Position numbers and translations under genes: made by a program
The notes under the pieces: generated by a model
What the model was told of the DNA's origin: nothing
The model's input: only the letters and a program-made list of their open reading frames with translations
The model's database searches: none
Assembly (NCBI RefSeq): GCF_000189775.2
Contig: NC_015555.1
Span: 1,871,001-1,935,000 of the forward strand
DNA from: Thermoanaerobacterium xylanolyticum LX-11
Lineage (GTDB): Bacteria; Bacillota; Thermoanaerobacteria; Thermoanaerobacterales; Thermoanaerobacteraceae
DNA: 64,000 bases
Reading direction: 5' to 3'
In this document: positions 6,332 to 44,753 of the stretch, piece after piece
How the letters are laid out: each line of letters begins with the position of its first letter
How positions within the stretch are numbered: position 1 is the stretch's first letter

Positions 6332-6772
6332 TTAAAACTCGCCTAAAGTAAAATTATCATTCTTTTGATTTTCTTCTATGTCTTGATTTTGTATATACTC
6401 TATTATCACTTCATCTGTTACATTGCCACTACTTGCTGCAAAATATCCTCGTGCCCATAAATGTTGTCCCCAAAATTGTTTGTTAAGCTCCTTATTCTCC
6501 ATTAGCAGCTTTCTCGAACTATATCCTTTTATATATTGCACTAGCTTACTTACTGACAAATGTGGTGGTGCCGACACTAGTATATGTATATGATCTTTTG
6601 ATACATGTCCTGATAATATTTCTACTTCATTATTTTTGCATACCATTCTTATTAGTTCTCTTGTCCTTTCAGCTATTTTCCCAACCAATACCGGTTTTCT
6701 ATATTTTGTTATCCATACTATATGATATTTTAGATCATATGTAGCATGTGACGACTTTCTATAATTTTGCAT
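6332..6772 (-). CDS. tnpA: IS200/IS605-family Y1 transposase TnpA
   Basis: The protein is 146 residues from the ATG at 6772, a usual length for TnpA. The HUH motif HIH is at residues 61-63 and the catalytic tyrosine sits in EVIIEYIQNQ at residue 126; GHLWA-type and YHIVWITKYR family motifs are present. The enzyme cuts and joins single-stranded DNA at hairpin ends, usually at the replication fork. An upstream GTG at 6781 is in frame, but the GAGGTG ribosome site favours the ATG. All catalytic residues are intact, so the element may be active. Confidence 0.93.
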   Translation of the reverse strand: MQNYRKSSHATYDLKYHIVWITKYRKPVLVGKIAERTRELIRMVCKNNEVEILSGHVSKDHIHILVSAPPHLSVSKLVQYIKGYSSRKLLMENKELNKQFWGQHLWARGYFAASSGNVTDEVIIEYIQNQDIEENQKNDNFTLGEF

Positions 6773-6778
6773 ATTTAT

Positions 6779-6807
6779 CACCTCTAGTTTATTTTTTACT
6801 AGAAGTG
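6779..6807 (-). promoter_or_regulatory. Hairpin burying the tnpA ribosome binding site
   Basis: CACCTCTAGT (6779-6788) pairs with ACTAGAAGTG (6798-6807), 10 bp with one G-U pair. The GAGGTG Shine-Dalgarno of tnpA lies within the 3' arm of the transcript. IS200 elements are known to restrict transposase translation by this kind of stem. Confidence 0.75.
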
Positions 6808-6844
6808 ATTATTTATTTTTATTCGTTGACCTAAAGGTTTCAGC

Positions 6845-21868: not shown

Positions 21869-21870
21869 AT

Positions 21871-21944
21871 AAAAACACCTCCACTATTTTCTCCTATTTA
21901 GATTTTGGTCTAAATAGGATATTTTTATACACAATGGTGGAGGT
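21871..21944 (-). terminator. atp-operon terminator that contains the ribosome site of the next gene
   Basis: An outer 11-bp stem (21877-21887 with 21934-21944, one G-T pair) encloses a perfect 11-bp inner stem (21892-21902 with 21909-21919). On the minus strand the 3' arm reads AGTGGAGGTG and is followed by TTTTT (21871-21875) and then ATATG. It begins 6 nt after the atpC stop. The structure can act as a terminator, and it hides the Shine-Dalgarno of the YcdB-like gene. Confidence 0.7.
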
Positions 21945-21949
21945 AAATT

Positions 21950-22363
21950 TTATATATTTTTGTATTTTTTTGCAATCGTCATTCTAACGAGGGCACGCCT
22001 CAATGCTGCCTTAGCGAGAAAATATTCTTTTTGGCTTTTCTTTTGCCTTAGCCTTTCTTCAGCTCTCTCTTTAGCTGCTTCAGCCCTTTTTATGTCTATC
22101 TCTTCAGGCCATTCTGCAGCATTAGCCAGTATTACGACATTGTCCTGCTTTACTTCCATAAAGCCATTTGAAATGCTGGCTTCTTTCCATTCGTTGTCGT
22201 TTTTTATCTTAAGTGTGCCAATTCCTAATGCGACAGTCATCGGAATATGACCTTTTTGGACTCCTACTTCACCAGCACTTGTAGTAACAATGATTTCCTC
22301 CACATCGCCATCGTAGAATTTGCGATATGGAGTCAATACTTCGAGGTGATACTTATTGTCCAT
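21950..22363 (-). CDS. atpC: F-type ATP synthase epsilon subunit
   Basis: The 137-residue protein has the N-terminal beta-sandwich (YHLEVLTPYRKFYDG, GEVGVQKGHIPM) and a C-terminal two-helix domain (AAKERAEERLRQKK). It couples rotor to catalytic head and restrains ATP hydrolysis in F1. The ATG at 22363 is 6 nt after GAGGTG and is preferred over the GTG at 22372. It is the last gene of the atp operon. Confidence 0.95.
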   Translation of the reverse strand: MDNKYHLEVLTPYRKFYDGDVEEIIVTTSAGEVGVQKGHIPMTVALGIGTLKIKNDNEWKEASISNGFMEVKQDNVVILANAAEWPEEIDIKRAEAAKERAEERLRQKKSQKEYFLAKAALRRALVRMTIAKKYKNI

Positions 22364-31439: not shown

Positions 31440-32300
31440 TTAAAAGATCACACTTTTCAAATCATCTGCAGTTATCTCATCTCTCCCATGCTTTAGCGCT
31501 TTAATAGCCAGATGTTGAAGCATACCTATAGCATCTTCTCCATTTTTTGCAGCATCAGCAATTTTTATACACACTTCATCATCAACATAAAACATTCCCT
31601 TGTTGGCAGAATTTTTGATTATATCTGCCAATACTCTTTTATCGTATTCCTTAAATTGAATGATTTCGCATAAATCTAGCAATTCATCTGGTAAAAGTGC
31701 AGAATCATCTACATTAACAGCAAGACGAAAATCTGCCGGAAATCCTTCTTTTAAAAAGCGTTTCACATGATCTGAAACATTTAAAATCAATCTGTCTTCA
31801 TAGTACACTTTTTTCGATTTCATCACATCTAAAAGCTTTAAAATATTGTTTGATGTCAAGTTTTCTAAATTATCAATGTAGAGAATCCCATTATTCGCCC
31901 TTGTGACAAGCCCTATTTTTATTTTTTTTATCTTACGGGAGCCAAAATCTATTTCAAATACATATCCAAACAATGAATCGCGAATAAAATCATCATTGTA
32001 CTTTTTATCAGGGTAGTATTCAACGAACTCTCCGCTTTTAAAGAAGCTTTCTTCACTACTTTTAACCTCTTTAAAGCACGTTCTTAAAATATCTCTTTTC
32101 CACGTACCACCTGGACCAGTTAATATCATGCTTTTAGGATTTTGGCTCCGCAAATTATTTAATATTTTTAGTACAGCTTCATCTTGTCCCAAAATATCAT
32201 CAACTTTTTGCACTCTGCACTTTTCTTTAAGAGGTTCATCAAGATGCATTTGAATGAATTTTTGCCTCTCTTCATATGTCATTTCAATATTTTGTGTCAT
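31440..32300 (-). CDS. Degenerate LonB-like AAA+ protein without protease domain
   Basis: The 286-residue protein sits where many Clostridia keep lonB, between clpX and lon. It matches the LonB ATPase half: DDILGQDEAVLKIL, SMILTGPGG, GILYIDNLENL and KEGFPADFRLAVN. The Walker A reads GPGGTWKR in place of GPPGVGKT, and Walker B ends in DN instead of DE. The sensor-like ALLPDELLDLCEIIQF and a C-terminal helical lid are kept, but there is no Ser-Lys protease domain. It may be a non-catalytic adaptor or a pseudo-enzyme in sporulation. There is no internal stop, so it looks maintained. Confidence 0.75.
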   Translation of the reverse strand: MTQNIEMTYEERQKFIQMHLDEPLKEKCRVQKVDDILGQDEAVLKILNNLRSQNPKSMILTGPGGTWKRDILRTCFKEVKSSEESFFKSGEFVEYYPDKKYNDDFIRDSLFGYVFEIDFGSRKIKKIKIGLVTRANNGILYIDNLENLTSNNILKLLDVMKSKKVYYEDRLILNVSDHVKRFLKEGFPADFRLAVNVDDSALLPDELLDLCEIIQFKEYDKRVLADIIKNSANKGMFYVDDEVCIKIADAAKNGEDAIGMLQHLAIKALKHGRDEITADDLKSVIF

Positions 32301-32301
32301 A

Positions 32302-32348
32302 AAAAACCTCCTTCTACATCTGATATTATGTGATAGAAGGAGGTTTTT
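32302..32348 (-). terminator. clpX terminator that contains the ribosome site of the LonB-like gene
   Basis: A perfect 15-bp stem (32302-32316 with 32334-32348) encloses a 17-nt loop. On the minus strand the 3' arm is TAGAAGGAGGTTTTT, so the GGAGG and the U-run are both inside it, and the ATG follows at 32300. It begins 13 nt after the clpX stop. Confidence 0.8.
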
Positions 32349-32361
32349 ATATACTTACTAA

Positions 32362-33636
32362 CTACGATACAGACTCAGATTTCTTGACTCTCTTTTTTGT
32401 CTTTTGGGACTCTGAATAAACAATCGTAGGTGGAGCATTGTTCAATACTGTTTCTTCCGTTATGATGCACTTCTCAATATTATCGCTGGATGGTATCTCA
32501 TACATCACATCAAGCATAAGCTCTTCAAGTATTGACCTTAATCCTCTCGCACCAGTCTTCCTGTCTATTGCCTTTTGAGCAATAACGCTTAGGGCTTTTT
32601 TGTCAAATTCAAGTTTCACCCCATCCAATTCAAACAGCTTTTCATACTGCTTTGTCAACGCATTTTTAGGCTCTGTCAGTATTCGTATCAAAGCATCTTT
32701 ATCAAGAGAATCAAGTGTCACAACAATCGGAAGCCTTCCGATAAACTCTGGAATAAGTCCAAATTTCAAGAGATCTTCAGGCATTATATTCTTTAAGATT
32801 TCACCTATTTTCTTCTCCTGTTTGCTTTGAATCTCTGATCCAAATCCTAATGACTTTTTGCCTATCCTGGATTCTATTATCTTTTCAATGCCATCAAATG
32901 CACCGCCAACAATGAACAAGATATTCGTAGTATCAATCTGTATGAATTCTTGATGAGGGTGTTTCCGTCCACCTTGAGGCGGAACATTTGCCACAGTACC
33001 TTCCAAAATTTTTAAAAGTGCTTGCTGTACACCTTCACCAGAGACATCCCTCGTAATCGACGGATTCTCTGATTTTCTGGCTATCTTATCAACCTCATCA
33101 ATGTACACAATGCCTTTTTCTGCCTTTTCTATGTCGTAATCTGCCGCCTGAATAAGCTTAAGAAGGATGTTCTCCACATCTTCACCTACATAACCCGCTT
33201 CCGTAAGTGATGTAGCATCTGCTATTGCAAACGGCACATTAAGCATCCTTGCTAATGTCTGTGCAAGAAGCGTCTTGCCAGAACCAGTAGGGCCTAACAT
33301 GAGAATATTGCTTTTTTGAAGCTCAACATCGTCAGATTTTACTCTGCTATTGATCCTCTTGTAATGGTTGTAAACCGCTACTGCCAACGCTTTTTTCGCT
33401 TTGTCTTGACCTATTACATACTGGTCAAGAAACTCTTTTATCTCCTTTGGCTTCGGAAGTTCACCTATCTCTACATCGATATTTTCTTCAAATTCTTCAT
33501 CGATGATTTCTTGGCAAAGCTCTATACATTCGTCACAGATATATACGCCTGGACCGGCAACTAATCTTTTTACCTGATCCTGTGACTTCCCGCAAAAAGA
33601 GCACTTCAACTGTTTTTGATTATCATATTTAGCCAT
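32362..33636 (-). CDS. clpX: ClpXP protease ATPase subunit ClpX
   Basis: The 424-residue unfoldase has a zinc-binding domain (Cys12, 15, 34, 37), Walker [10 protein letters not shown] (115-122), Walker [10 protein letters not shown] with Glu181, the [18 protein letters not shown] region, and the ClpP-contact IGF-type loop as KSLGFGSE. It unfolds tagged substrates and feeds them to ClpP. It follows clpP by 20 bp in the tig-clpP-clpX operon. Confidence 0.97.
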
Positions 33637-44604: not shown

Positions 44605-44623
44605 AACGGCCCCTCCTTAAAAT

Positions 44624-44649
44624 AAAAAAACTCTTCGCCAAAAGAAGAG
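44624..44649 (-). terminator. Regulated terminator of the SAM riboswitch
   Basis: CTCTTC (44631-44636) pairs with GAAGAG (44644-44649); on the minus strand seven T (44624-44630) follow. It lies right after the aptamer. Confidence 0.85.
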
Positions 44650-44658
44650 ATATTTTTG

Positions 44659-44753
44659 CTCCCATCTTTCAGCGATATGCTGCTGGAATTGGCACCGTGA
44701 TATCCGGTTGCCGAGCTTCATAGGGCCAGTCCCTCCGCTACTCTTGATAAGAG
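44659..44753 (-). ncRNA. SAM-I (S-box) riboswitch controlling metF-metH
   Basis: P1 is CTCTTATC (minus strand, 44753-44746) with GATGGGAG (44666-44659), including two G-U pairs. The core has AGCGGAGGGACTGGCCC, then GAAGCTCGGCAACCGG and GGTGCCAATTCC, then GAAAGATGGGAG, as in the canonical S-box. When SAM is high the aptamer closes and the terminator at 44624-44649 forms, turning off methionine synthesis. Confidence 0.95.

Follow-up and report, generated by a model that had tools for sequence, protein, structure and literature searches.

Layout of the clpX/LonB-like junction

The window, the whole 64,000-nt stretch of the Thermoanaerobacterium xylanolyticum LX-11 genome analysed here, contains clpX, a LonB-like gene, lon and a small GTP-binding-protein gene in that order, all on the minus strand. 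An inverted repeat lies between clpX and the LonB-like gene (junction, minus strand: AAGTATATAAAAACCTCCTTCTATCACATAATATCAGATGTAGAAGGAGGTTTTTTATG), and the entire Shine-Dalgarno (SD) sequence of the LonB-like gene falls within its 3′ arm. The features of the junction are as follows.

32362..33636, minus strand: clpX (NF003745/TIGR00382), from which read-through RNA would come; stop codon at 32364-32362
32302..32348, minus strand: SD-sequestering hairpin, based on sequence, fold, shuffles and conservation with altered stem letters
32348-32334, minus strand: 5′ arm AAAAACCTCCTTCTA, 15 perfect pairs with the 3′ arm, 0 mismatches
32334..32348, minus strand: anti-SD ACCTCCTTCTA in the 5′ arm, spacer of the predicted promoter and upstream of its predicted start
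32333-32317, minus strand: hairpin loop of 17 nt, from sequence
32316-32302, minus strand: 3′ arm TAGAAGGAGGTTTTT, containing the whole SD GGAGG
32307..32311, minus strand: GGAGG, the SD for LonB-like translation, within the 3′ arm
32348..32354, minus strand: predicted -35 region GTATATA, with a 17-nt spacer from TATATA to CATAATA; a weaker match than the -10 box
32324..32330, minus strand: CATAATA, a predicted -10 box of forespore type, in the loop and on invariant columns; CATACTA in genome G005
31440..32300, minus strand: LonB-like AAA+ gene, 286 aa; ATG at 32300-32298

On the minus-strand sequence the stem comprises 15 Watson-Crick pairs and one inner U-G pair. Six T precede the LonB-like ATG, including one extra T beyond the 3′ arm at 32301, and part of this T-rich sequence is paired to the A-run in the 5′ arm. 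The initial annotation had described a hairpin of 15 perfect pairs with GGAGG in its 3′ arm and T-rich sequence before the ATG; each of these points holds, on the minus strand. Because the stem begins 13 nt after the clpX stop codon, a ribosome terminating there should, given its usual footprint, not keep the hairpin open.

This is the longest SD-containing stem before a start codon found by a both-strand scan of the 64 kb (16 pairs). SD stems of 16 or more pairs did not occur in 30 dinucleotide shuffles, in which 15-bp stems arose at 0.13 per window, and the fold has a z-score of -3.5, with 0/200 shuffles as good.

The LonB-like protein is a LonB derivative that is non-proteolytic and probably no longer an ATPase. 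It matches TIGR02902 with 126 bits (cut-off 723 bits) at positions 42-329 of 531; the match ends with the AAA+ part, and the Lon protease domain is absent by both profile and alignment. The name LonB-like therefore suits the AAA+ part but not the missing protease domain. Alignment across the genus and genome G009 further shows degenerate Walker A and B motifs (GPGGTWKR and IDN vs GPPGVGKT and IDE), and in all these genomes the reading frame is unbroken despite the lost Walker residues and missing protease domain.

Conservation of the hairpin

Of the Thermoanaerobacterium genomes, 8/9 carry the LonB-like gene, as does one genome from a second genus, and two genomes from a different family of the same order have full-length lonB; at every one of these loci an SD hairpin lies at the start codon. 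A LonB-like protein search of genome contigs recovered the locus in T. saccharolyticum NTOU1. We also looked for close relatives lacking the hairpin, a possibility raised in the initial annotation, and found the hairpin present in close relatives. It is retained even in several congeners whose LonB-like proteins share just 46-57% identity with that of the window. The loci of the genus are closely related, so their agreement partly reflects descent.

Stem letters change while pairing is kept. An A-U pair is exchanged for G-C in G005 (AAAAAGCCTCC/GGAGGCTTTTT) and for G-U in G003, the letters are largely different and still paired in G009 (ATGAAACCTCC/GGAGGTTTCAT), and G021 and G023 pair CACCTC with GAGGTG. 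Across eight lonB junctions from three genera, the invariant columns cluster in the loop (CA.ATA.TAT), and the stem varies yet remains paired.

SD pairing in read-through and promoter-derived RNA

Folding gives the LonB-like SD of the window a pairing probability of 0.98 in read-through RNA vs 0.27 in RNA that begins at the predicted start, and found no stable fold of the latter (32318-32260). At the nine loci in and near the genus the corresponding values are 0.98-1.00 and 0.26-0.62. Among 59 lonB loci with a callable promoter, mean SD pairing is 0.74 from upstream vs 0.50 from the predicted start, and several of the predicted short RNAs free the SD only incompletely. These foldings, and the conservation of the pairing, bear out the initial proposal that the SD is buried in clpX read-through RNA.

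Part of the contrast between long and short RNAs is an effect of length, and we therefore shuffled the upstream part as a control. SD pairing in and near the genus is 0.987 vs 0.689 with the upstream part shuffled (maximum 0.80 of 40), and at the other 50 lonB loci 0.692 vs 0.620 (maximum 0.661 of 40). For the nine loci in and near the genus, at most one of the 40 shuffles equalled the observed read-through values. Pairing exceeds 0.8 at 21/50 of these outside loci, vs 12.5 in shuffles. As modelled by folding, SD burial beyond the genus is real but comes from a subset of loci such as G040, G150, G097, G302 and G366, and folding gave a further example in G132, G289, G334 and G394, with CTTTCCGGATAAAC/GTTTATCCGGAAAG stems. 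Many lonB genes in the wider set lack SD burial, so the arrangement is not universal.

A predicted forespore promoter inside the hairpin

We scored promoter boxes against the B. subtilis consensus, which is approximately TGAATA-17/18-CATACTA for sigma-G and GYATA-15-GGNNAYAMTW for sigma-F. The sigma-F spacing is 15, but 14 at sigG (PMC5942855). With the predicted -35 region upstream and the -10 box in the loop, the anti-SD arm doubles as the promoter spacer. The -35 region is kept as GTATATA or ATATATA within the genus; its match is loose, as a 17-nt spacing lacks the consensus G, which is found only at 19. We also tried a sigma-E reading of the promoter and rejected it, as the -10 fits but a -35 is absent at 13-15 nt.

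CATAATA by itself is a common word (23 copies in this AT-rich window), and we therefore examined lonB promoters more widely, in 80 lonB junctions drawn from the phylum, with the promoter searched up to 150 nt upstream. Complete sigma-F promoters are found at 29/80 of these clostridial junctions (shuffle mean 0.08, maximum 1) and the sigma-F -10 alone at 44/80, vs 1.0 in shuffles. Loci in and near the genus have a sigma-G-type promoter in 8/11 cases, vs 0.06 in shuffles. The sigma-F enrichment marks lonB, judged by sequence, as a conserved forespore gene in Clostridia, and on the same basis the predicted promoter of the genus is a sigma-G-like form of this conserved forespore promoter. B. subtilis lonB is itself reportedly under sigma-F control, and the references of PMC3174212 include a title to this effect.

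Proposed silencing of read-through by promoter choice

We consider it probable, on these models, that the hairpin silences read-through from clpX and that the forespore promoter inside it yields a translatable mRNA. Specifically, we infer read-through, a translation block, use of the internal promoter and the identity of its sigma factor, which would combine as follows. Polymerase arriving from clpX would produce a transcript whose anti-SD arm pairs with the LonB-like SD, and the buried SD would leave the gene untranslated in growing cells; in Thermoanaerobacterium, the T-run may also end part of the clpX-derived transcripts. During sporulation, a forespore holoenzyme of the sigma-G or sigma-F type would use the GTATATA and CATAATA boxes flanking the anti-SD arm and start transcription close to where the 3′ arm begins, at about 32317, giving a leader of about 17 nt. 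Such an mRNA would have no 5′ arm and a largely free SD, so that the LonB-like gene would be translated in the forespore only. Since transcription is predicted to start downstream of the 5′ arm, the switch would consist in the choice of promoter and not in a refolding RNA.

An unlikely alternative is that the element combines a terminator with an SD mask, with no internal promoter, and allows low LonB-like expression from the clpX promoters. Within the genus the stem is followed by six T and is the sole terminator candidate after clpX, and TTTT after the SD is kept at 8/9 loci in and near the genus. It is lost in G009, however, and present at only 7/50 other clostridial lonB loci, so termination is an add-on at most. 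A terminator scan with a loop limit of 8 did not list the site, where a U-run is present and the loop is 17 nt, a large size whose unfavourable effect on an efficient intrinsic terminator speaks against this reading. It also leaves unexplained why the invariant part is the loop, why the loop matches a forespore -10 and why sigma-F promoters are so strongly conserved at lonB. The conserved feature is SD burial and not the U-run; termination may add to the effect within the genus, but the initial view of the element as primarily a terminator is, given the lost T-run and the long loop, not well supported.

Less likely again is a conditional RNA switch, with the hairpin of a clpX-lonB transcript opening in response to heat, a ligand or a protein. 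SD hairpins are the usual output device of such switches, and the organism appears from its genus assignment to be a thermophile. Yet the stem (about -20 kcal/mol) has no competing fold that we could see, no aptamer or Rfam match was found at the hairpin (the sole Rfam match in the window is a SAM riboswitch), and a promoter box is the better fit to the invariant loop. Finally, a DNA operator for a transcription factor, with the RNA fold incidental, would accord with a long palindrome overlapping the predicted promoter but is very improbable, as stem letters vary across genera and families with SD pairing kept, which is unexpected for one protein's operator, and the G-U change in G003 keeps RNA pairing while breaking DNA symmetry.

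Recurrence at other sporulation loci

The nesting of a predicted promoter in an SD hairpin, our preferred reading of the lonB junction, recurs elsewhere, as the initial annotation had suggested for the layout of the hairpin: at spoIIQ and further junctions and, for the SD hairpin, at the gene following atpC. The SD of Thermoanaerobacterium spoIIQ, which follows spoIID, pairs with the arm CCTCCTTTGGTATA, and a complete sigma-F promoter (GTATA-14-GGTTAAAATA) overlaps this stem in 9/9 genomes of the genus (L222-L230). Modelled SD pairing in these nine is 0.96-1.00 in read-through RNA vs 0.15-0.48 from the predicted start. Genome G022 has the same order in other letters (GTATA, anti-SD, GGTTATACTA, SD; GTATAAACCTCCAACAAATGGTTATACTACCTGTTGGAGGTGG), as does G013. 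By these predictions spoIIQ is an independent instance of the promoter-in-SD-hairpin layout. Three other sister-genus genomes (L232-L234) have a strong T-run hairpin directly upstream of the spoIIQ -35, and SD burial in them is weak (0.39-0.59). An SD hairpin and a classical terminator-like hairpin are apparently alternative stops for spoIID read-through.

Further junctions came from a motif search and serve as examples and not as a count; their upstream genes were named by eye, and the survey of the window's own genome was pattern-based. Each has an SD hairpin and sporulation-like boxes.

Own genome: mgsA-like gene followed by an M23 protein gene in the spoIVFA position
G047: spoIIR-like gene followed by ymxH
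G045: spoIID-like gene followed by yabP
G021: PBP-like gene followed by sigK
Other genomes: cotJA, ymxH and spoIID/LytB homologues

Phylum-wide, the motif CCTCC..CATAMTA..GGAGG occurs in 148/398 genomes and its permuted form with CTAAMTA in 69/398, an excess that we regard as no more than suggestive, since background frequency is not the same for the two words. Several of the fetched sites had no gene behind them. We also looked at sigG of the genus for a hairpin of the B. subtilis type, which is absent there.

These cases raise the tentative possibility, which we hold to be rather less than even, of a general insulation rule in endospore-forming Clostridia, by which a gene of one sporulation regulon that stands behind a gene of another has its promoter nested in a hairpin burying the SD of read-through RNA. 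Such a rule would keep compartment specificity without a terminator, and lonB, spoIIQ, the spoIVFA-like gene, ymxH, yabP, sigK and cotJA would be instances of it. Spore genes are packed closely against neighbours that belong to other compartments, which leaves scant space for terminators. A nested promoter would let one short sequence block leaky read-through at translation while permitting full expression once the proper stage is reached. Should the layout prove recurrent at lonB, spoIIQ and the other loci, it would offer a simple, searchable signature predicting sporulation promoters and starts in unstudied spore formers.

Relation to known systems

The initial annotation knew of no standard name for such an element, but precedents exist in T4 gene e, B. 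subtilis sigG and IS200. For T4 gene e (and likewise soc, 49 and I-TevI), a long early RNA buries the SD with an effect of about 100-fold, and late promoters in the DNA of the 5′ strand give a late mRNA that lacks this strand and is well translated (PMC3014915). The predicted lonB arrangement is alike in burying the SD in a long RNA and placing the promoter within the 5′ strand, whereas the T4 case is a phage one, uses a gp55 late promoter and was shown experimentally.

At B. subtilis sigG (spoIIIG), a hairpin of 20+ bp was proposed to block read-through from spoIIG, and transcripts that start at PsigG, a sigma-F/sigma-G promoter, are unable to fold into it (PMC5942855). There too a sporulation gene stands behind another gene and would escape a read-through hairpin by its own promoter; lonB differs in the gene and class, in the housekeeping gene clpX upstream and in the T-run after the stem. 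A separate, small RBS hairpin of five pairs at sigG forms in the promoter's own transcript (PMC5942855). It lowers the translation of a forespore gene by burying the SD, as is predicted for the lonB hairpin, but the transcript of the lonB promoter should itself escape burial. Were the recurrence described above to hold, the isolated remark on sigG would become a general, directly testable design.

The IS200 transposase leader combines an SD hairpin with termination of impinging transcripts (PMC3196728). It shares SD burial, and possibly the stop for incoming transcripts, with the lonB hairpin, but uses two separate stem-loops, and a developmental promoter in the loop is not described there (PMC3196728). 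The mechanism is thus already known, and its recurrence at clostridial sporulation genes appears to be undescribed: neither the lonB and spoIIQ arrangements nor the recurrent feature is described in the searchable literature, whose partial coverage makes this weak evidence of novelty.

Other SD hairpins

The initial annotation had also pointed to a similar hairpin after atpC, and this case stands: the SD of the following 485-aa gene is paired (ACCTCCAC/GTGGAGGT) within a larger structure as strong as the one after clpX (z-score -5.1 in the window). It is conserved in 9/9 genomes of the genus, with the same layout and nearly unchanged. The gene behind it is YcdB/YpeB-like.

21876-21945, minus strand: core of the atpC-case SD structure, with an inner 11-bp hairpin; nested double hairpin at 21870-21953

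A sigma-F-like GGAGAAAATA precedes this SD, but a -35 is lacking at the right distance, and we do not claim a promoter here.

Three further observations concern SD-containing structures. The IS200/IS605 transposase gene in the window (6332-6781) has an SD hairpin at 6777-6809 on the minus strand (12 bp, z-score -7.3), which is the known IS200 arrangement. The SAM riboswitch (RF00162) at 44659-44753 on the minus strand has an SD-containing stem just downstream, at 44610-44649. Lastly, an SD hairpin (CCTCCTTTGAAAAAAATAAATATAAATTAAAAAAGGAGG) that recurs in at least five Thermoanaerobacterium genomes belongs to the gene of an unknown 66-aa protein at locus L122 (G000:C1:316822).
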